Shown here: positions 3,432 through 34,699 of the stretch, one piece after another
Layout of the letters: each line of letters begins with the position of its first letter
How positions within the stretch are numbered: the first letter of the stretch is position 1
Source of the DNA: Candidatus Dadabacteria bacterium
GTDB lineage: Bacteria; Bdellovibrionota_C; UBA2361; J046
Direction of reading: 5' to 3'
Assembly: GCA_003696425.1 (NCBI GenBank)
Contig: RFHI01000029.1
Span: 1-39,033 of the forward strand
Length of the DNA: 39,033 bases
Program-made: the position numbers and the translations under genes
The notes under the pieces: generated by a model
Told to the model about the DNA's origin: nothing
Database searches by the model: none
Seen by the model: the letters and a program-made list of their open reading frames with translations, nothing else

Positions 3432-3650
3432 ATCACCTTCATAAGTAACACAGGGGCAGAATTTGGACGAGTGGCTTTCTTTGTTGACTGCCCTCCTAAT
3501 ATTTAAAGCGGTTTGATTTCATATAGTTATAAATCTTTTCTAAATTCCCTACCCTGCCTCGCCGACCATATATTACGAGCCTCCCCGTTATTAAAAGGTT
3601 ACGTCTGCCCCCGAAATTTCCCGGCAGCAGAGACATCAGGAAATTGTCAC

Positions 3651-5270
3651 ATGAACAGTCAAAATGATCACAAGCTTCTTATTGCCTATTGCGCAACAGT
3701 TTTAATAATTCTGATACTCGCTGTCGGAATGCCACAACAGCTAAACCTCCCTGCCAAAAGTCATGGTGGCGGGGGGGGAACGCGTGGCGCATCAGCGCCT
3801 ACCTATCAGTTTCCCTCACTCTGCGGCCCGCAGTTTGAAGGTGCTGTAATAAACTTTGCAGTAGAATGTTTTAACGACTCGATCTTTATTAACTGGCAGG
3901 TTTCAAAAGCCGATCAGTTCGGCTGGCAGTATGTTTCAGAGTCAGCCGGAGATGCTGCCGGCGGATTTGATTATGATATTCTCGGGCTGGCCTTCAGGGA
4001 AACTGCTACTGAAATCTGGGTAGTAATTAATGCCAACATGCCTTACCCGGGCGGAAACGATATCGCCAATCCGCTGCCCGGTCGTGATAATAATATAAAT
4101 TACGGTGATCTCTTCATTAACCTTACAGGACTCTCATTTGAAGAAGCTAACGATAAAAGTGCGCTGTACGCCGTTCGTTTTGCGCCAAATAATGATTCAC
4201 AGGTAAGCGACCTGGGGGTCTATAAAAACGTAAAAGCAATGTCAGTGTCTATTTTTAACATGGGGCCAGTTGACCGCGCAGGTTATGAGCGTTTTATCCG
4301 CAACAACTACGGAGCTGAACCTGATTACGGGGAGTACCCCAAAACGATGAGCTATTTTGCACCTACCAGCAGCTTTAACGTGATTGAAAGCGGTACATAC
4401 GCCGGGCCCATTCAGATGATTACTTCAAGCACTCTGGCAGCGGAAAATTTTGATCTTACAAAATTTAAAGGACTCTATACCTTTGCCTTTAAGTTCGATA
4501 AGAAGCTGATAATTGATCAGTGCGGAGTAGTCGGCGGGGACGGCACAAGCTGCCTGGACTGCGCCGGTGTAGCCTGCGGCAGGTCGGTTAAGGATCAATG
4601 CGGCGTTTGTAACGGCGACGACTCAACCTGCCAGGATTGCCTTGGTATTCCTAACGGAGATGCCTTAATAGACCAGTGCGGCGTATGCGCAGGTGACGGC
4701 ACAAGCTGTCTTGACTGCGCCGGCGTGCCATTTGGAAAGAGTAAAGTTGACCGCTGCGGCGTTTGCGGCGGAAATGGCGAATCCTGCCTGGGCTGCGAAA
4801 GCTTTGATAAAACCTCCGAGCTGGTTGTGCTAGACGGCACAGCAGCCCAGCAATATACGCAGCTAAAAAAAGCGCTTAAGGCGCTTAGTAAGGCCATAAA
4901 AAAGAGTAGCGACTCCAAGAAGCTCAAGCGCTGGGTTAAGCAGGCTGAAGTCCGTGGAGAACAGCTTCATATGGATAACTGGGCACGCGCCTGGCAGCTT
5001 CCGCAGTATGTAAAAAGCTGCTCCAACCAGGCCTTTTGCAGCGAGAGCAGCAACTCGCGCATAATCAATGAGTATATTGATGCTGCCGGGGAGCTTTACA
5101 CGCTTACCAGACAGGCGCTTAAAAAACTTAAGAAACTGGGTGCAAGCAATAAACGAAACAAAAAAATCGGCAAAACAGCAAAGAAACTGCTGAACCAGGC
5201 CACCCGCCTGGCGGGTAGCTTCCCGCAATCGACCAGTATCTGCTCGGATGTTCAGGCCAGCAGGCGTTAG
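3651..5270 (+). CDS. Secreted protein with Cys-rich 'DQCGVCGGDGTSCLDC' repeats
   Basis: At least four repeats (DQCGVVGGDGTSCLDC, DQCGVCNGDDSTCQDC, DQCGVCAGDGTSCLDC, DRCGVCGGNGESCLGC); N-terminal hydrophobic segment after Met at 3651. Confidence 0.65.
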   Translation: MNSQNDHKLLIAYCATVLIILILAVGMPQQLNLPAKSHGGGGGTRGASAPTYQFPSLCGPQFEGAVINFAVECFNDSIFINWQVSKADQFGWQYVSESAGDAAGGFDYDILGLAFRETATEIWVVINANMPYPGGNDIANPLPGRDNNINYGDLFINLTGLSFEEANDKSALYAVRFAPNNDSQVSDLGVYKNVKAMSVSIFNMGPVDRAGYERFIRNNYGAEPDYGEYPKTMSYFAPTSSFNVIESGTYAGPIQMITSSTLAAENFDLTKFKGLYTFAFKFDKKLIIDQCGVVGGDGTSCLDCAGVACGRSVKDQCGVCNGDDSTCQDCLGIPNGDALIDQCGVCAGDGTSCLDCAGVPFGKSKVDRCGVCGGNGESCLGCESFDKTSELVVLDGTAAQQYTQLKKALKALSKAIKKSSDSKKLKRWVKQAEVRGEQLHMDNWARAWQLPQYVKSCSNQAFCSESSNSRIINEYIDAAGELYTLTRQALKKLKKLGASNKRNKKIGKTAKKLLNQATRLAGSFPQSTSICSDVQASRR

Positions 5271-22586: not shown

Positions 22587-22849
22587 GCGCTCTTCAATCA
22601 GCCGCAGCAGGCCTAAAATCAAGCTGAACAGTCATACGGAAAATCCGGAATTTATTAATAATTACTGGACTTGGAAGTACTTTATTGTCTAGTATTACGC
22701 CAAGATTTTTACGTAAGCTTGGCTATTATTATCCGGAGCAATTGCGAATTTTTTTGTGGCTCGTCCGCGTAAGATTAAATGGCTGTATAACTCCGTCTTC
22801 TCCGTTCGTTATTTTGCTCCACGAAGATTTGGTGACTACTAATAATCTA

Positions 22850-25800
22850 ATGAGCAGAACAGTTCGTGCCTTTAGTATAATTCTGATTACCCTGTTGGCC
22901 TTCCCGTTATTAGCGAGTTCGGCTTATGCTGAAAGCCGGCGTCTTGAGCCGGTAACCCTTCAGCTAAAATGGTACCACCAGTTTCAGTTTGCCGGATTCT
23001 ATGCCGCAAAGCTTAAAGGTTATTATCGTGATGAGGGCCTTGATGTAACAATTCGCGAGAGAATTGGCGATGAGGATCACCTTCAGGATGTTATTCAGGG
23101 AGTTGCCGAGTACGGTGTAAGCGGCCCTGAGCTTCTCTACGGTCGTCTTAAGGGGCTTCCGCTGGTAGCGCTGGCTGTAATCTTTCAGCACTCGCCCTAC
23201 GTTCTGATTACCCGCGCAAAAGATAATATCCGTACTCCGGCCGATCTAAGCGGCAAAAAGGTAATGATCTCAGACGCGCTTGAGCGCAACATGTTTATTG
23301 CCATGTTTAAAAAGGCGGGTGTGCCCTGGGATAGCATAAATATTGTAAAGCATACGCGCTCGGTTAACGAGCTGGCGGAAGGAAAAGTCGCGGCCATGTC
23401 AGGTTACATGACCACCCAGGGTATAAGCCTGAAACTGCGTGGAATCGAGCCTTATTACATTAAACCAATTGATTACGGCATTGACTGTTACGGCGATACG
23501 CTTTTTACCACTGAAGAGGAGCTTAAAAACCACCCCGACCGCGTAGATGCGATGATTAGAGCCTCTATTAGGGGCTGGGAATATGCACTCTCTCATGAAA
23601 ACGAGGTTATCGACCATATTCTGACGCTTCCGGGTGTTAAAGAGCGCGGCATAACCCGCACCAGGCTCGAACTTGAAGCCCAGGCAACCCGCCCCGCTAT
23701 TATGCCCCAGCTCATTGAGATCGGCCATATGAACCCTGCCCGCTGGAATAATATGGCTCGGCTACTGGCTGAAACCGGCCTGGTTAGTCCTGACTTTTCG
23801 CTTGAGGGGTTTATGTACAGCCCCAAAGTTAAATTGGACTATACACCTTATTACATATTGGCTGCTGCCGTTCTGCTGCTTCTCGGTATTGTCTTTATAG
23901 TAACCCGCTGGAATAAACAGCTGAAAAAATCTGTAGAGGCTCGCACCCGGCAGCTTGAGTGCAGCACCAAGCAGATCAAAGCCTTCTTTCAGGCCTCGCC
24001 TGATATTATGTTTTTCCTAAAACCTGATGGAACAATCTTTGGCTATAACTGTGGTGATCCAACCCAGCTTTATCTTAAGCCGGAAGATTTTATGGGGCGA
24101 AGAATGCAGGATCTTTTACCTGCCGATTCTGCCCGAAGGTTTAAAGAAGCTATTGAATTAATCAACACCAGCGGGGAGATGCAAACCTTTGAATACCAGC
24201 TAAGGGTTCCAGCCGGCCTGCACTGGTTTGAGGCCAGGCTGGTAAAGGCAAAAGATGGCGACCTGGCTACGATTGTACGAAACATTACAGATAGAAAAAT
24301 TACTGACAGTTCGCTTCGCGAACAGGCTGCGCGCCTTAAGCGGGCACAGGAGATCTCGCAGCTTGGCTTTATCGAATGGAATGTTGATACGAACGAGATA
24401 TTCTGGTCAGAGCAAACCTACAGGATATTTGGCGTCAGTGAAGACATACCTCCAACTTTTGAAAGTACCATAGAGCGGGTACATCCCGATGACCGCGATC
24501 TGGTAGTCTCAAGGCTTAAGCTCGCCTCGGAAGGAAAGCAGGAATACGATATAGATCACCGTATTGTAACTCCCGCCGGTGAGGTGCGTTATGTACACGG
24601 CGTTGCTGATCTTCGGACAAACATAAATGGTGAGCGGCTGCTGGTAGGAACAATGCACGATATAAGCGACCGGGTAAAAGCAGAAGAGCAGAATGCTCTT
24701 CTTGAGTCCCAGCTTCAGCAGGCCCAAAAGCTGGAAACGCTTGGCACGCTGGCCGGCGGGATAGCACATGACTTTAATAATATTCTCTCTCCCCTGATCG
24801 GATACCTTGAGCTTGCACTGGGAGATGATGCGGTTAAAGGTGATCTTAAGGAGTACCTGGATAGAGCCTACCAGTCTGCCAAAAGAGGGGCACGCCTGGC
24901 TAAGCAAATTCTGCTCTTTAGCGGGAAAAGCACACAGCGCCTGGCCCCCTGTTACCTGCAGGAGACAGTTGAAGATGCCCTTGAGCTTTTGCGGGCTACA
25001 ATACCTGCAAATATTGAGCTTAAAAAAGAGATATCAAACGATTGCCCGCCTGTGATGACTGATCCTATTCAGATTCACCAGATTATAATGAACCTGGGCA
25101 CCAACGCCGCACACGCCATGCGTCCCACTGGAGGCAGGCTGACCGTGTCGCTCTCAGAGGCTACAGTTGATCGGAGTGTTTCCGCCCAGCGCCCCAATCT
25201 CAAACCCGGGCGTTATGTCAGGATTACCGTAAAAGATACCGGCTGTGGCATGGATGAAAAAACGCTGTCGTCAATTTTTGATCCGTTCTTTACCACCAAA
25301 CCTGCAGGCGAAGGTACCGGTCTGGGGCTTGCCGTGGTTCATGGAATTGTTCAAAAGCATGGCGGCGATATTATCGTTGAAAGCGCTCCAGACCGCGGCA
25401 CAACTTTCAGTGTCTATCTTCCGCCCACAGACAAATTACCGGAGAAGAAAGAGTCTTCACCGACTACAAACCTGCACGGCAGAGAGAGGATTCTACTGGT
25501 GGATGATGAGGAACTGATTGCTGAAGTCAGTAAAGAGATGCTTGAGCAGCTTGGATATCAGGTAACAATTTGCACCGCCGGAAGGGCTGCGCTTGAAAAG
25601 CTCCGCAACAACCCGGCCGGCTTTGACCTTGTGGTAACCGATCTCTCAATGCATGATATTACCGGTAGCGAGCTGGCCAGGGAGATTGAGAGTATCTGCC
25701 CGGGCATGCCGGTTATTCTTACAAGCGGCTATTCTGTTCAGGGTGATAGCGGCGACCTTAACGGAACTATCCGCGCCTTTCTAGCCAAGCCCTTTGGCAT

Positions 25801-25864
25801 TCGTGAGCTGGCAGCAACGATACGGAAGGTGCTGGACAGTTCTGTAATTAAAGCACGTACATAA
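22850..25864 (+). CDS. Hybrid histidine kinase with NMT1/THI5-like periplasmic binding domain, PAS domains and receiver
   Basis: VTLQLKWYHQFQFAGFYAAKLKGYYRDEGLDVTI (NMT1-like), TM, PAS/PAC, LAGGIAHDFNNILSPLIGYLELA H-box, REC (ILLVDDEELIAEV...LVVTDLSMHDITG). Start moved to Met before the signal peptide. Confidence 0.92.
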   Translation: MSRTVRAFSIILITLLAFPLLASSAYAESRRLEPVTLQLKWYHQFQFAGFYAAKLKGYYRDEGLDVTIRERIGDEDHLQDVIQGVAEYGVSGPELLYGRLKGLPLVALAVIFQHSPYVLITRAKDNIRTPADLSGKKVMISDALERNMFIAMFKKAGVPWDSINIVKHTRSVNELAEGKVAAMSGYMTTQGISLKLRGIEPYYIKPIDYGIDCYGDTLFTTEEELKNHPDRVDAMIRASIRGWEYALSHENEVIDHILTLPGVKERGITRTRLELEAQATRPAIMPQLIEIGHMNPARWNNMARLLAETGLVSPDFSLEGFMYSPKVKLDYTPYYILAAAVLLLLGIVFIVTRWNKQLKKSVEARTRQLECSTKQIKAFFQASPDIMFFLKPDGTIFGYNCGDPTQLYLKPEDFMGRRMQDLLPADSARRFKEAIELINTSGEMQTFEYQLRVPAGLHWFEARLVKAKDGDLATIVRNITDRKITDSSLREQAARLKRAQEISQLGFIEWNVDTNEIFWSEQTYRIFGVSEDIPPTFESTIERVHPDDRDLVVSRLKLASEGKQEYDIDHRIVTPAGEVRYVHGVADLRTNINGERLLVGTMHDISDRVKAEEQNALLESQLQQAQKLETLGTLAGGIAHDFNNILSPLIGYLELALGDDAVKGDLKEYLDRAYQSAKRGARLAKQILLFSGKSTQRLAPCYLQETVEDALELLRATIPANIELKKEISNDCPPVMTDPIQIHQIIMNLGTNAAHAMRPTGGRLTVSLSEATVDRSVSAQRPNLKPGRYVRITVKDTGCGMDEKTLSSIFDPFFTTKPAGEGTGLGLAVVHGIVQKHGGDIIVESAPDRGTTFSVYLPPTDKLPEKKESSPTTNLHGRERILLVDDEELIAEVSKEMLEQLGYQVTICTAGRAALEKLRNNPAGFDLVVTDLSMHDITGSELAREIESICPGMPVILTSGYSVQGDSGDLNGTIRAFLAKPFGIRELAATIRKVLDSSVIKART

Positions 25865-27855: not shown

Positions 27856-28221
27856 TAAACAATCAGATTAAGTGTTGTGCCACATTGTGTGCACATACTT
27901 CATCATAAAGATCTCCGCTCCCTTTATAATCGTCCTGCATAAGCCGATGACTGCCGGGTCAGATGAATTACAGACTTTATCAATACTGTAGATGGCCTGA
28001 TAACCTGATAAGCGGCCTTCCCTACGGTTATCATAATTTGATTATTAATTTCAGGGTGCTATGTACTGTTTAATACAACATATATGTGGCTATATAATTA
28101 ATTGAACTGATTGATCAAGATTGCACATGTTTCTAATAGCTTAACTGGACTTTATCTTTAAAGTATTTAAATATTAATACCAATTACGGACAAACAGGTC
28201 ACTTATTGGAGGATTAAAGTG

Positions 28222-29430
28222 ATGTTACAAAGAGCATTACTAATTTCAGGATTGATTTTTATCTCGTTTCAGTCTGCTTTTGCAAAGCCGCGCCCCCAAA
28301 TTTCCGGAGTCGGTAATGTACTCTTTGTAGTTGAGCGGGAGGATCAGTCACTGGCACTGGTTGATATGGATAAGATGTCTGTCACCGGACGAATTAAGCT
28401 CTCCGGTAATATGCACCATGCTACAATGGTATTTGACCCTGCACTTAAATACGGATATGTGGCTACCAGAAACGGGATCTTGACCCGCGTTAACCTTGAA
28501 ACCTTAAGCGAAGACGGTGAGCTAAAAACATCTGACAATTCTATCGGGCTGGCAATTTCGCAGGATGGGAAAACCATAGCAGTATCAGAATACCAGCCCG
28601 GCGGGATAACTTTTGTTGATACAGCCTCGTTTAAAGTGCGTCAGGTCATTCCTGCTGAGGTTAAAAAAGACGGCAAAACGTTCCGCTCACGTGTTACCGG
28701 GCTGGTTGACGGACCTGATAATACATTTGTAGCTGCACTGATGGATTCCGATCAGATCTGGATTCTGGGTAAAAAAGACCCGGCAGATCCTGCCTCAAAC
28801 TACGAGATTAAAAAGCGCATTAAAACTGCTGCCCCCTCCCCCTTTGATGCGCTGATTACTCCGGAGGGACGCTACTATATAACCGGACACCTTAACGCTG
28901 ATGTGGCCTCACTGGTTGATCTCTGGAATCCGGCTGATAAGGCCCGCCGGCTTGAGCTTGATCCACATAAGAAACCCGGGGAACTGCCGGTTAAAATGCC
29001 GCACATGGAGGCCTGGGCAGTTGCAGGCGATAAAATATACGTACCGCTTACCGGCAAGAAAAAACTTGCGCTGCTTAACAGCCGTGACTTTTCACACATT
29101 GGAAGTGTTAAGCTGATTGGAAATCCGGTTTACGCGGTAGTTCATCCTAATCACCGCGAGATCTGGGTAACGTTCTCCGGAGAAGGTGTTGACGGCAAGA
29201 TTCAGGTTATAAATACCACTGACAATTCTACCGATAAAATCATTAACGTAGGAAAACGTGTTTATCATCTCTCTTTTACTCCGCGCGGCAACCTTGCGTT
29301 TGCCTCTTCAAATCTTACCAACGAACTTGTTGTAATTAACTGCTTGAATCACAGTATTATAAAAAAGGTTGCACTGCATTCTCCATCCGGCATATTTGGA
29401 GTCTGGCGGGCCTTTGAAATTGGATTATAG
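28222..29430 (+). CDS. nirF: NirF-like cytochrome d1-domain protein (heme d1 biosynthesis)
   Basis: Signal peptide; d1-type beta-propeller sequence (VVEREDQSLALVDMDKMSVTGRIKLSGNMHHATMVFDPALKYGYVATRNGILTRVNLETL); no CXXCH, so not NirS/NirN. SD GGAGG upstream. Start may be GTG 28219 or ATG 28222. Confidence 0.85.
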   Translation: MLQRALLISGLIFISFQSAFAKPRPQISGVGNVLFVVEREDQSLALVDMDKMSVTGRIKLSGNMHHATMVFDPALKYGYVATRNGILTRVNLETLSEDGELKTSDNSIGLAISQDGKTIAVSEYQPGGITFVDTASFKVRQVIPAEVKKDGKTFRSRVTGLVDGPDNTFVAALMDSDQIWILGKKDPADPASNYEIKKRIKTAAPSPFDALITPEGRYYITGHLNADVASLVDLWNPADKARRLELDPHKKPGELPVKMPHMEAWAVAGDKIYVPLTGKKKLALLNSRDFSHIGSVKLIGNPVYAVVHPNHREIWVTFSGEGVDGKIQVINTTDNSTDKIINVGKRVYHLSFTPRGNLAFASSNLTNELVVINCLNHSIIKKVALHSPSGIFGVWRAFEIGL

Positions 29431-29436
29431 AAGGGC

Positions 29437-30012
29437 ATGACTGATAAACATCTGCTCCCGGTAGCACTGGATTTATCAAAAATCCGGGTCTTAATTATCG
29501 GCGGCGGAAGAGCTGCCACTGATAAACTTAAACGCCTGCTCAGGGAAACTACTGATATCGTAATTGTATCACCGGAACTTACCGATGAACTGCTTGGACT
29601 GTCAGGCAGGTATAAACTTCAGGTAAAAAAGCGTGCCTTTGAACTGGGCGACCTTAAAGGGGCTGGCCTAGTGGTTTTAACTGTAAGTGAGAGCGGGCTT
29701 AACCAAAGGATATCAGAGCTGGTGTTAAAAAAGGGACTGCTCTTAAACAACGCTGCTTTTCCTGAGCGCGGCAATATTAACTTCTGTGCCTACACTAAAA
29801 AAGACGGTATCACGCTTGCTGTTTCAACTTCCGGCCAGGCTCCTGCTGTGGCAGCCCGGATACGCGACTACTTTGCAGAGCTGCTACCGGATAATACCGA
29901 AGAATTAATCCATAAGATAAAAGAGCTGCGCACTACGATTCCGGCTGGAAAAGATCGTGAAAAGCTTTTGCGGGAACTAAGTGAAGAAATTACTACAAAC
30001 TTAAGGGACTAA
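29437..30012 (+). CDS. Precorrin-2 dehydrogenase / sirohydrochlorin ferrochelatase-like (Met8/CysG-N)
   Basis: LPVALDLSKIRVLIIGGGRAATDKLKRLL, LLNNAAFPERGNINFCAYTKKDGITLAVSTSGQAPAVAARIRD. Confidence 0.88.
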   Translation: MTDKHLLPVALDLSKIRVLIIGGGRAATDKLKRLLRETTDIVIVSPELTDELLGLSGRYKLQVKKRAFELGDLKGAGLVVLTVSESGLNQRISELVLKKGLLLNNAAFPERGNINFCAYTKKDGITLAVSTSGQAPAVAARIRDYFAELLPDNTEELIHKIKELRTTIPAGKDREKLLRELSEEITTNLRD

Positions 30013-30018
30013 AATTTA

Positions 30019-31245
30019 ATGCTTCAGGTAAGTGACCTTCTTAAGACAGCCATAGACATCAGCACCGGTGAGAACAGTGAAGCATTGGAGGAGACAGTTA
30101 GTAACGCTGCTGCCACCCGCTTTCGAAACGATCTTCCACCGGTAGTTGTCTGGAACGTCAACCACACCTGCAACATGACCTGTCCGCACTGCTATGCGTC
30201 AGCAAAGCTAAAGCCGGCTTATGACGGGGTAAGTACAGAAGAGGCGCTCAAGATCATCGACAAGCTGAACCGCGCCGGCATTCAGATAATAATCTTTTCC
30301 GGCGGCGAGCCGCTTATGCGCGAGGATCTCTTTGAATTAATAACAGCTGCCCGCGGCTACGGCATATCCTGCCATCTCTCAAGTAATGGAACATTAATAA
30401 CTGACGATACTGCCGGTAAGTTAAAAGAGCTTGGGATAACTTATGTAGGAGTAAGTATCGACGGACTTCCTGAATTTAACGATACTTACCGTGGTCTTAA
30501 AGACGGCTACAAGCTCGCCTGGCGCGGAATAAGGGCGGCTAAAGAAGCGGGCCTGCAGACCGGAGTCAGAATTACAGTTACTTCCAAAAATGCCGATCAG
30601 GTTCTTCCGCTGCTTGACATTGTTAGCTCTGAAGGCGTACCGCGCTTTTATGTCTCTCATCTGGTCTATGGCGGGCGCGGGCGCTCTTATGCCAAAAACG
30701 ATCTGGATCACCGGGCCGCCCGCCAGTCTATGACGGCTCTCTTTAATAAGGCGCTTGAACTGATAGAAGCTGGAAACGGCCCATCAATTGTAACTGGAGG
30801 GAATGATGCCGACGGGGTGTTTCTCTATCTCTTTACCAAAAAGCGGCTGGGAGACAAGGCGGCTTCAGCAATATTTGAACTGCTAAAAAAACGGGGCGGC
30901 AATTCAGCCGGTGAGAAGATAATAAATATAGATCATAAAGCCAACGTACATCCTGACCAGTTCTGGCAGGTTTCAAACTGCGGAAATATTCTTGAAGAAG
31001 AGCTTGAAGAGATCAGATCAAAGGGGCTTATGCTTGAACTCCGGCAGCGCGAGAAGCTGCTTAAAGGAAAATGCGGAAGCTGCATCTATAAAGCCCTATG
31101 CCGCGGTTCGCACCGCGAAAGAGCGCTGGCAGCCTATGGCGATGTCTGGCGCGAAGACCCGGCCTGTTATCTAAATAGTGAAGAAACCCTGGGCCTGGCA
31201 GATGAAGAATCACAAGTATCTGCTTTAAGTGGTGCAGCGCGTTAA
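30019..31245 (+). CDS. nirJ: Radical SAM heme d1 biosynthesis protein NirJ
   Basis: CNMTCPHCYA, FSGGEPL, SHLVYGGRG, GGNDADGVF, C-terminal CGSCIYKALCRGSHRERALAAYGD SPASM-like cluster. Confidence 0.9.
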   Translation: MLQVSDLLKTAIDISTGENSEALEETVSNAAATRFRNDLPPVVVWNVNHTCNMTCPHCYASAKLKPAYDGVSTEEALKIIDKLNRAGIQIIIFSGGEPLMREDLFELITAARGYGISCHLSSNGTLITDDTAGKLKELGITYVGVSIDGLPEFNDTYRGLKDGYKLAWRGIRAAKEAGLQTGVRITVTSKNADQVLPLLDIVSSEGVPRFYVSHLVYGGRGRSYAKNDLDHRAARQSMTALFNKALELIEAGNGPSIVTGGNDADGVFLYLFTKKRLGDKAASAIFELLKKRGGNSAGEKIINIDHKANVHPDQFWQVSNCGNILEEELEEIRSKGLMLELRQREKLLKGKCGSCIYKALCRGSHRERALAAYGDVWREDPACYLNSEETLGLADEESQVSALSGAAR

Positions 31246-32504
31246 TGGTAATGCTGGCGGAAACAAAATCTGGTTCTGAGGATGCTCTTGAGATAATAAG
31301 AGAAGCGCTGAATATAAGCGCGAGCGGAATTAAAAGCAGCCGAGACTTAAGTGAAAAGCTGGTTTCGCAGGTTATTGAAGCGCTTTCTGGCGGTAAAATT
31401 CCCGAATTTGAGTCTGCTGCACTGCTTACGGCACTTTATCTGAAAAAGCCTTCTAGGGGTGAGCGCACGATCTTCGAATTTTTTTCTTTAAATCCCGATG
31501 ATCCGGTAGCACTGGCTGAATTTTTGCTTGAAAACGAGCCACTTCAGTTTAAAGATTCTCTGATTAAACTGTTAGGAGCAGGACATATTACTGCAGATGA
31601 AGCGTATCAGGCTGGCTCTTACCTCTTATCGGGCTCTTGCGGCCTGCGCGCGGCCGCAGCTTTTCCGATTGCTCTTCGAATGCGCCATGAAAACCGGGAT
31701 GAGCTAGTCGGCCTTTACCGCGCCATGCATGAAACTCTGCTAAGGGTTAATATTAAGGAGTGCCCTACTCCACTTATCCAGCTGGCTGAACCCTTTGACG
31801 GCACAAACCACTCCCCTTTTATTACTCCCTATCTTGCGAACAAATTCATAGAGCAGGGATTTAACACCATCATGGTAAGCAGCCCCTCTCCCGGCCCAAA
31901 AGAGGCAATAAATCTTAACAGGCTGCTTACAGAGCTTGGCGCGAGCTTTTCTGATATTAACTCTCCCACGCCAGATCAGAGCTTCGGCTATCTCTTCAAA
32001 CTTGAGACACTCTCGCCCAGACTGGCCGACTGGGTGTTGCTTAGAAAAAGGCTGGTTAAGCGGACATTTTTTGCTGCAGTTGAAAAGTTTCTCTCACCGG
32101 CGAAAAATCGCATTCTTATTACTTCTGTATTTCATGTTCCTTACGGTGAAAAACTGGTTGAGCTGGCTGAAGCAATCGCGCTACCTGCAATAATTGTGTC
32201 AGTCGGCGGTCTGGAAGGGTCTCTTACTCTTGCTGGCAATAAAAATTCGAGGCTTTTAGCCGGCGTAAGAACTCAAGTCGGATCCTACAAACGCTTTGAA
32301 CTGAGCGTTTCTGCTGCTGCAGATAAACCTTTGGAACCATTAAAACTACAGGGCAGAAACATTTTACAGCAGAATAGAGATATTATAGGCTCACTTTTAT
32401 CGGAAGGCGGCAGCGCTCCGTTATGGATAGAAAAGGCCTGTGCTTACAGTCTTAAAGCATATGAAGAGGGAATTAACAGAGTTATGGAAGTAATTGGAAA
32501 GTAG
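31245..32504 (+). CDS. TrpD2/YbiB-like (anthranilate phosphoribosyltransferase family-like) protein within the d1 operon
   Basis: Helical TrpD N-domain-like GGKIPEFESAALLTALYLKKPSRGERTIFEFF, a second related segment PIALRMRHENRDELVGLYRAM, and core LAEPFDGTNHSPFITPYLANKFIEQGFNTIMVS...KRLVKRTFFAAVEKFLSP...VGGLEGSLTL. ATG overlaps the nirJ TAA. Confidence 0.7.
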   Translation: MVMLAETKSGSEDALEIIREALNISASGIKSSRDLSEKLVSQVIEALSGGKIPEFESAALLTALYLKKPSRGERTIFEFFSLNPDDPVALAEFLLENEPLQFKDSLIKLLGAGHITADEAYQAGSYLLSGSCGLRAAAAFPIALRMRHENRDELVGLYRAMHETLLRVNIKECPTPLIQLAEPFDGTNHSPFITPYLANKFIEQGFNTIMVSSPSPGPKEAINLNRLLTELGASFSDINSPTPDQSFGYLFKLETLSPRLADWVLLRKRLVKRTFFAAVEKFLSPAKNRILITSVFHVPYGEKLVELAEAIALPAIIVSVGGLEGSLTLAGNKNSRLLAGVRTQVGSYKRFELSVSAAADKPLEPLKLQGRNILQQNRDIIGSLLSEGGSAPLWIEKACAYSLKAYEEGINRVMEVIGK

Positions 32505-32505
32505 C

Positions 32506-33549
32506 ATGAATCCAGAGAAAGAAAACGAACTTGCAAAACTGATTCAAAAGGGCGTGCCGCTTGTTGAGAGGCCCTATCGGGCTATCGCTGCCAAAATGGA
32601 TCTTAGCGAACTGGAAGTTATTGAGCAGATAAAAGTGTGGCGGAAGGCCGGCTATCTGCGCGAGATATCCGCTGTAATGGAGGGCAGTGTTCTGGGATAT
32701 GATTCTGCGCTGGTATGCGGCAGCGTTCCTGCGGAGCGTCTGAATGAGGTTGCCAGGATAATTTCAGCACACCCGACTGTAACGCATAATTACGAAAGGG
32801 TTCACCATTATAACTTATGGTTTACTATCGCTGTGCCGAAAAGTGTTGGTCTTGAGAAGCATGTGCGTGCGCTTGAAGTTGTAACTGGCATAAGCCCTTT
32901 TCATATATTGCGGAGGACTCATACTTTTAAGATTGGTGTTGTTTTTGACATTAAAAATAAAACTAATGAAACAGAGCGGGTAAAACTTAAATCTCCAGGG
33001 AGTGGCAGAATATTCAACCCTGGCGAGATTCGAATTATCCGCGCGCTGCAGCGCGATCTTCCTGCGGTAAGTGAACCCTTTAAGGTGCTGGCTGACGAGC
33101 TTGGAATAGCCTCTGAAAAGCTTCTTGAGTTTGCCAATAGAGAGCGTGGCAAAGCGCTCAGGCGCTACGTAGGCACTTTCCGGCACAGAAAGTTGGGGGT
33201 TACTGCAAATGGTATGACCGTATGGAATGTGCCGGAGAACCAGCTTGAAGAAAAAGGGTTTATGCTGGCCGGCTTTTCAGGAGTAAGTCACTGTTATGCC
33301 AGAAACACTGCCCCGGGCTTTCCTTATAGTCTTTATGCAATGCTGCACGGGCCGGACAGTCAGTATCTTCGTAGAACTGCTGATGAAATCTCACAAAAGC
33401 TTGGCTGCAGTGATTATCTTATTCTGGAATCACCGACTGAATTTAAAAAATGCAGATTAAGATACTTTCTACCGGAGCTTGACGACTGGTGGAGAGCGCA
33501 CAGTGGGTTTGTTGAGGAGTCGGCTGGCGGTGTAGCGCCTGGAATTTAA
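32506..33549 (+). CDS. nirDL: Fused siroheme decarboxylase (NirDL / AhbAB-type, Lrp/AsnC-like)
   Basis: Two AsnC-like halves: HNYERVHHYNLWFTIAVP (first) and SHCYARNTAPGFPYSLYAMLHG (second), typical of NirD/L/G/H. Start 2 nt after the upstream stop. Confidence 0.88.
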   Translation: MNPEKENELAKLIQKGVPLVERPYRAIAAKMDLSELEVIEQIKVWRKAGYLREISAVMEGSVLGYDSALVCGSVPAERLNEVARIISAHPTVTHNYERVHHYNLWFTIAVPKSVGLEKHVRALEVVTGISPFHILRRTHTFKIGVVFDIKNKTNETERVKLKSPGSGRIFNPGEIRIIRALQRDLPAVSEPFKVLADELGIASEKLLEFANRERGKALRRYVGTFRHRKLGVTANGMTVWNVPENQLEEKGFMLAGFSGVSHCYARNTAPGFPYSLYAMLHGPDSQYLRRTADEISQKLGCSDYLILESPTEFKKCRLRYFLPELDDWWRAHSGFVEESAGGVAPGI

Positions 33550-33559
33550 CAGGATTTTT

Positions 33560-34699
33560 ATGAACAACCAACCAGGCAAAGTATATCTTATTGGCGCTGG
33601 TCCCGGAGCAGACGATCTTATTACTCTGCGCGGCAAAAGGGCCCTGCAGGAGAGTGACGTTGTACTTTATGATCGTCTGAGCAGCAGGGGTCTTTTAAAG
33701 TACTGCAAACCATCGTGTGAATTTATAAACGTCGGGAAAGAAGATGGCCGCCACCCGGTGCCGCAGGAAGAGATAAACCGCCTGATAATCACAAATGCTG
33801 CTGCCGGTAAAGTTGTAAGCAGGCTTAAGGGAGGCGATGCGCTTGTTTTTGCAAGAGGCGGCGAAGAATTTGAAACGGTGATAAGAGAAGGTCTTGACTG
33901 TGAAATTGTCCCTGGTGTTACAGCAGCATTTGGCGCTGCGGCTTCTCTTGCGATTCCGCTTACTCACCGCGACTATGCGTCCGGGGTATTGTTTCTTACC
34001 GGCCACAAGAAAAAGGATGGTGACTACAGCGAGTACCGCAATCTCGATTTGGCGCGCTTTACGCATGTAATTTACATGGGAATACTGAATATTAATGCGC
34101 TTGTATCTGAAATAGTTTCATCAAATCCGGAGCATGGCGGAGTTCCGGCGGCAGTAATTGAGCGTGCCTCTACAGAGGCCGAGCGCGTTGTAACAGCGGA
34201 ACTTTCAAAGCTTCCGGCGGTGGTAGAGCGCGATGGGATTAAGCCGCCTGCCCTGATTATAATTGGGCGGGTAGTTGAGTTTTATGACCGTTTAAAAGGT
34301 ATTCGTAAAAGAAGTTCTGCCGGCTCTTCTGGTGCCGGGTCTTCAGAATTAATTATAGTAGCACACGGAAGCCGTCGGGTTCAGTCGAACCAGGAGGTAG
34401 AGAACTTAACCGTTGAAATTGCCGGGGAGATTGGTTCGACCTATGCGCATGTCTCCTGTGCTTTTCTTGAGATGGCCAGCCCTTCGATTCCGGAAGCCAT
34501 TGACAGGGCTGCAGGTCGCAGAGCAGAGAGGATTGTAATTCTGCCTCATTTTCTGGCAGCCGGAACGCATGTGACTAAAGATATTCCGGCGATTATAGAA
34601 GAGAAGAAGAAGCAGTATCCTGATATTCACTTTGAGATTCGCCCGCACAGCGGCCAGTCGCCGCTTCTTAAGCGGGCAATTATTGAGCTCTCGGAGTAG
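33560..34699 (+). CDS. Uroporphyrinogen-III C-methyltransferase (CobA/NirE) fused to CbiX/SirB-like chelatase domain
   Basis: SUMT: VYLIGAGPGADDLITLRGKRALQESDVVLYDRL, RLKGGDALVFARGGEE, EIVPGVTAAFGAAA. C-terminal CbiX: LIIVAHGSRRVQSNQEV...VILPHFLAAGTHVTKDIP. Confidence 0.9.
   Translation: MNNQPGKVYLIGAGPGADDLITLRGKRALQESDVVLYDRLSSRGLLKYCKPSCEFINVGKEDGRHPVPQEEINRLIITNAAAGKVVSRLKGGDALVFARGGEEFETVIREGLDCEIVPGVTAAFGAAASLAIPLTHRDYASGVLFLTGHKKKDGDYSEYRNLDLARFTHVIYMGILNINALVSEIVSSNPEHGGVPAAVIERASTEAERVVTAELSKLPAVVERDGIKPPALIIIGRVVEFYDRLKGIRKRSSAGSSGAGSSELIIVAHGSRRVQSNQEVENLTVEIAGEIGSTYAHVSCAFLEMASPSIPEAIDRAAGRRAERIVILPHFLAAGTHVTKDIPAIIEEKKKQYPDIHFEIRPHSGQSPLLKRAIIELSE

Follow-up and report, generated by a model that had tools for sequence, protein, structure and literature searches.

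What does a TrpD2-like protein do in the middle of a heme d1 operon? The question is raised by a stretch of 39,033 nucleotides from a Candidatus Dadabacteria genome (contig RFHI01000029.1 of assembly GCA_003696425.1), which we refer to as the window. The open reading frame in question (31245-32504, forward strand) is intact and encodes 419 amino acids, and the coordinates given for it in a preliminary description of this DNA were exact. As described there, its ATG (31245-31247) overlaps the TAA stop codon of the nirJ-like gene (31243-31245) by 1 nt in the sequence TAATG. Its own TAG (32502-32504) is separated from the ATG of nirDL (32506-32508) by a gap of 1 nt and not by the 2 nt reported earlier. 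The gene is the fourth of six same-strand operon genes in the order nirF-like, precorrin-2 dehydrogenase, nirJ-like, TrpD2-like, nirDL and cobA-cbiX, with gaps of 6, 6, -1, 1 and 10 nt (Table 1). Pfam and NCBIfam models verified the neighbours, and hence the setting between nirJ and a fused nirDL, while the tight spacing on both sides (-1 nt and 1 nt) supports the proposed translational coupling. In GC and GC3 the gene differs little from the operon. A scan of the window for FNR-type sites returned 4 matches, compared with 4.35 expected.

Table 1. Genes of the heme d1 operon and sequence features of the TrpD2-type protein encoded in it
Feature	Position in the window	Strand	Support
nirF-like Cytochrom_D1 beta-propeller protein with signal peptide, operon gene 1	28219..29430	+	PF02239, 190 bits
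Precorrin-2 dehydrogenase / siroheme synthase N-domain (CysG-N type)	29437..30012	+	TIGR01470, 73.9 bits (above cut-off 62.3)
nirJ-like radical SAM protein	30019..31245	+	Best model NirJ, TIGR04051, 370.8 bits (below equivalog cut-off 515)
Predicted TrpD2-type protein, duplicated Glycos_trans_3N	31245..32504	+	PF02885, 58.5 bits; AlphaFold2 pLDDT 90; Foldseek TrpD/YbiB
Extra (first) Glycos_trans_3N copy, residues 32-75	31338..31469	+	26.7 bits alone; same position in L075/L095
Second Glycos_trans_3N copy, residues 104-163	31554..31733	+	Aligns with N-domain of TrpD/YbiB
QLAEPFDG...TP motif, residues 179-195, replacing TrpD GTGGD	31779..31829	+	Alignment
nirDL, fused siroheme decarboxylase	32506..33549	+	NF040707/NF040708 (AhbA, AhbB models), 217 + 209 bits, both above cut-off
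cobA-cbiX fusion (SUMT + CbiX chelatase-type domain)	33560..34699	+	TIGR01469, 264.8 bits; PF01903

In the host genome (2.98 Mb in 280 contigs, 96% complete), contig C202 carries a gene for a NirS-like protein, with cytochrome domains at its N-terminus, next to a cbb3-type oxidase cluster, and contig C183 encodes a NirN-like protein. A NIR_SIR siroheme reductase was not found in this genome. Thus, siroheme should here serve heme d1. A canonical TrpD is encoded elsewhere in the genome within a trp operon and hence the open reading frame in the window is not trpD. The NirS-like protein itself (L157:5877-7991, G000 contig C202) has 704 amino acids, with CcoP-like matches at residues 42-130 and c-type matches at residues 194-271.

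The preliminary description had considered the protein as a candidate for a missing step of d1 synthesis. Its position in the operon speaks for such an enzyme, and nothing else does. The last open chemical step of the pathway, the introduction of the heme d1 keto groups, is carried out by NirF and NirC (PMC13168839). Furthermore, the genome G030, which belongs to the same class, has a d1 cluster of different gene order (L010:1815-8750) with precorrin-2 dehydrogenase, nirJ, nirF, nirDL, a small c-type cytochrome, cobA, cbiX and nirN, and a TrpD2 gene was found neither in this cluster nor elsewhere in G030. The association of homologues with d1 genes that the preliminary description had proposed to look for did not appear either: nirJ, nirF and nirDL were found in 0 of the 80 homologue loci that were fetched. 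A missing-step enzyme is strongly disfavoured by these data and we regard it as extremely improbable. On plasmids, the nirJ and TrpD2 lists had no record in common among the matches listed, with 19 TrpD2 records lying outside them. The host genome is the only one in which we found a d1 operon with a TrpD2-like gene, and the heme d1 operon is a new context for a TrpD2-type protein.

Pfam recognizes two Glycos_trans_3N stretches in the protein. Residues 1-101 alone match this model with 26.7 bits (cut-off 26) and the homologues L075 and L095 have a match at the same N-terminal place, in line with the earlier view of an extended N-terminus with two TrpD-N-like segments. In a direct local alignment the similarity of the two copies was not above that of shuffled sequence, and therefore it is the Pfam profile that supports a duplicated N-domain. 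No Pfam model matched the C-terminal 264 residues. NCBIfam matches were to PRK07394, YbiB, PRK09071 and trpD, with scores well short of the respective cut-offs, and a sequence search of the PDB matched TrpD and YbiB. The fold comparison suggested earlier gave the same two families: an AlphaFold2 model (pLDDT 90, pTM 0.89, alignment of 52 sequences) was matched by Foldseek to TrpD (1kgz, E 2.8e-12) and YbiB (4muo, E 1.5e-11). The family assignment of the preliminary description therefore holds. Judged from sequence and predicted structure, the window protein is of the TrpD2 type in the broad sense, a member of the YbiB-like superfamily with a predicted TrpD fold that lacks the PRTase motifs.

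The overall fold is common to TrpD and the window protein, but the window gene sits outside any trp operon. TrpD identity was rejected because the protein reaches 42 bits with TIGR01245, against a cut-off of 199, and the PRPP and Mg motifs are missing. Compared with the host genome's own TrpD, AEPFD replaces GTGGD with the Asp kept, while KHGN and the Mg-binding Asp-Glu pair are lost. The sequence Q-x-A-E-P-F-D-G is unchanged in all 51 aligned homologues, in which Q179, A181-G186, T194 and P195 are invariant, and the motifs of the former active site are strictly kept in the same set (QxAEPFDG, GPK, W..R....KR, EK...P, FH..Y.EK, G.EG). Such conservation would fit a real enzyme, which would have the phosphoribosyltransferase fold with a changed substrate and would act on a ligand that is made or used with siroheme or d1. 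However, all three TrpD motifs are replaced, and YbiB-type TrpD2 proteins are without TrpD catalytic function (PMC10123104); an enzyme of this kind appears quite improbable to us.

YbiB, the E. coli TrpD2 that binds DNA and interacts with ObgE, resembles the window protein in its fold and in the loss of the PRTase motifs. The two differ in that YbiB is located in a LexA/dinG context, while the extra N-domain is a feature of the window protein. Arg92 of YbiB, which is needed for DNA and ObgE binding (PMC10123104), aligns at or near His189, and Arg123 maps to the GPK219 region. Both arginines belong to the DNA/ObgE-binding groove of YbiB, and as neither is matched, identity with YbiB proper was rejected. 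His is the commonest residue at the position equivalent to Arg92 (37 of 51 subfamily sequences).

Within the phylum a match was obtained in 1 of 46 genomes, namely the host genome, and a search of contigs from close-relative genomes with the single protein gave no match. A scan of 85,462 species genomes, seeded with a profile, detected homologues of full length that include the extra N-domain; they come from Omnitrophota, one Planctomycetota MAG and many Cytophagales. These double-N homologues are 29-36% identical to the window protein and align mostly over the full length, with E values down to 2e-52. In G082 and G360 the two-N-domain layout may be present as well, as judged from the alignment. 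Weaker matches in G053, G214, G352, G254, G143 and G157 proved to be ordinary TrpD, and that in G256 a TrpG-TrpD fusion. With two Glycos_trans_3N copies and the QxAEPFDG core, the window protein is assigned by sequence to the double-N TrpD2 subfamily. In the tree it is the sister of all double-N homologues and groups with them against the Nitrospinota type with 100/100 support. Its branch is very long (2.18 changes per column) and it departs from the family in 34 of the 87 columns with strong conservation, so its function may have drifted.

The relatives have a recurrent neighbourhood of their own. At 13 Cytophagales loci putative nitrate/nitrite-assimilation genes (nas/nirBD/cobA) lie within ~9 kb of the double-N gene; the genome and plasmid samples are non-random and the functions of linked genes are taken from homology alone. 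In 9 of the 11 Cytophagales loci examined gene by gene, the double-N gene adjoins the nas operon and is divergent from it, with a gap of ~250-650 nt. At L131 and L132 it follows cobA after 10 nt, and the cobA-TrpD2 pair is divergent from nirBD. Co-occurrence was determined in a sample of 243 genomes from a single bacterial order, identified as Cytophagales by its named loci; of these, 25 encode the double-N protein and 80 the assimilatory NirB. The nirB gene was present in 22 of the 25 double-N genomes and in 58 of the 218 others (Fisher P 2.6e-9, odds ratio 20), a statistic that ignores phylogeny and genome size. Pairs of double-N gene and nirB within 15 kb were seen 6 times, compared with 0.09 expected. 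The bearers of the double-N protein have large genomes, three of them are without NirB, and 58 NirB genomes are without the double-N protein. The nas label needs 8 changes on the tree and hence the linkage is patchy.

The Omnitrophota homologues and many of those in Spirosoma are located away from nitrite genes, and NirB was found in 3 of 9 Omnitrophota genomes searched. The Omnitrophota double-N genes lie near dusB, encoding a tRNA dihydrouridine synthase, and mostly also near an mtaB-like methylthiotransferase gene (dusB context at L075, L078, L079, L081, L092, L105, L107, L135, L142 and L147). These neighbours suggest an RNA-related context in Omnitrophota. Together with the YbiB fold match and the many homologues unlinked to nitrite genes, they would fit a general YbiB-like nucleic-acid binder whose placement in the d1 operon is incidental. 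Such an incidental placement is at odds with the translational coupling on both sides and with a nas linkage that recurs well beyond chance, and the subfamily residue at the Arg92 equivalent is not Arg. We consider this explanation, one of the two leading rivals, rather unlikely.

By profile, the closest known proteins are those of the CnaT type. PRK07394 is the best NCBIfam model for the window protein and its homologues; membership by score was rejected, as the window protein scores 56 bits and the cut-off is 287. The double-N profile matched a PRK07394-type protein with E 2.9e-13, better than YbiB with 2.3e-10. CnaT is reportedly a TrpD-like protein. This is supported by a gene annotated as 'anthranilate phosphoribosyltransferase' that flanks nrtABCD in picocyanobacteria (PMC10161378). 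The cyanobacterial cnaT gene is reported to act as a positive element in the regulation of nirA-operon expression (PMC9430850). The CnaT/PRK07394 type and the window protein share the TrpD-type fold family and a link to nitrite reductase genes, and a KRPxxATxE motif is common to the PRK07394 and double-N types. In contrast, CnaT-type proteins have ~350 amino acids, one N-domain and a matched Pfam a/b domain, whereas the window protein has two N-domains and no Pfam a/b match, and it resides in a d1 operon and not with the nirA operon. In a presumed cyanobacterium, the PRK07394-type gene adjoins a gene for a LysR-type regulator.

Short TrpD2 genes are also embedded in siroheme/nitrite operons of alphaproteobacteria. 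In Ponticoccus and Sulfitobacter they are part of nirB-nirD-nas-TrpD2-cysG operons with 4-nt overlaps, and in Skermanella a short TrpD2 gene stands beside nir/nas genes. The PRK09071 TrpD2 proteins of the nirB-nirD-nas-TrpD2-cysG operons resemble the window protein in their setting, but they have ~320 amino acids and a single N-domain, are ~25% identical and belong to nitrate assimilation rather than denitrification. Catenovulum has a TrpD2 gene in a nas-TrpD2...cobA-nirB cluster. TrpD2 genes directly 5' of cysG or after cobA, and the placement of the window gene between nirJ and nirDL, would also suit a protein that handles siroheme or d1 intermediates. It would bind a tetrapyrrole or an enzyme and act as a chaperone between CobA/CbiX, NirDL and NirJ, or towards periplasmic export. 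However, we know of no tetrapyrrole-binding precedent in the TrpD fold, no transmembrane segment was seen in the sequence or the AlphaFold2 model, and Omnitrophota homologues occur in genomes without NirB and without tetrapyrrole genes nearby. This second leading rival is unlikely in our view, even if the route by which the NirJ product crosses the membrane is unknown (PMC13168839). A further alphaproteobacterial TrpD2 set is found at siderophore-uptake loci, and the three members examined are LysR-type HTH-TrpD2 fusions, in which the TrpD2 domain is thus used as part of a regulator.

With a probability of about 0.42, we tentatively propose that the window protein is a non-catalytic double-N TrpD2 protein that would regulate or assist nitrite reduction in the host, from siroheme to d1. 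It would be co-expressed with the heme d1 enzymes, bind a ligand in the strictly conserved cleft of the former active site, make contact with nucleic acid or a partner protein, and influence how the nitrite-reducing system is expressed or assembled. Its role would parallel that of CnaT-type TrpD-like proteins serving siroheme-dependent nitrite assimilation. We find a role of this kind the most likely one, given the fold, the motif loss, the N-domain duplication seen by profile, the tight operon and the linkage of the relatives. The regulatory reading draws on the tight operon, on NirS-like and NirN-like proteins in a genome without NIR_SIR, on the CnaT type as closest by profile, on the Cytophagales nas/nirBD/cobA linkage, on the short TrpD2 genes in nir/nas operons and on the LysR HTH-TrpD2 fusions. 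It is weakened by the lack of any other d1 operon found with the gene, the long branch, the unlinked homologues, His189 at the position of YbiB Arg92, the lack of a regulator-type HTH in the window protein, and a co-occurrence statistic that takes no account of phylogeny or genome size. The preliminary description had also considered an accessory or regulatory protein of the d1 pathway. The expected linkage of homologues to d1 genes did not stand, whereas a broader form of the idea survives, since homologues recur with siroheme and nitrite genes.

In a still wider reading, TrpD2-type proteins would form a broad and largely unrecognised class of regulators or accessory proteins for siroheme-type tetrapyrroles and nitrite reduction, and the window gene would be its first member from heme d1 synthesis and denitrification. 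Examples would be CnaT with nirA, PRK09071 with nirBD-cysG and the double-N type with nas/cobA in Bacteroidota. We hold this to be possible, with considerable doubt. If true, TrpD2 proteins, for which there are structures and no agreed role, would be tied to nitrite reduction and siroheme-derived cofactors in several phyla, and the role of CnaT/TrpD2 would become testable in cultured Cytophagales and roseobacters. The d1 pathway would also lose a candidate enzyme that was tempting but is probably wrong.

Some additional observations concern the fusions and the remainder of the window. In the three LysR-type HTH-TrpD2 fusions (L073:4557-5969, L066:4530-5990 and L068:4551-6044) TrpD2 replaces the LysR effector domain, and the neighbouring genes encode siderophore ABC transporters and TonB receptors. 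The arrangement resembles that of a regulator of iron uptake in which TrpD2 would be the sensor. Genes of similar length in the same siderophore context are present at L064, L067, L069, L070, L072 and L074. In the window, the product of positions 3513-5270 is predicted to be secreted and has several Cys-rich repeats of the type DxCGVCxGDxxxCxDC in tandem, and positions 22685-25864 encode a putative large hybrid sensor, which starts with an NMT1/THI5-like region for substrate binding and continues with PAS, histidine-kinase and receiver regions.
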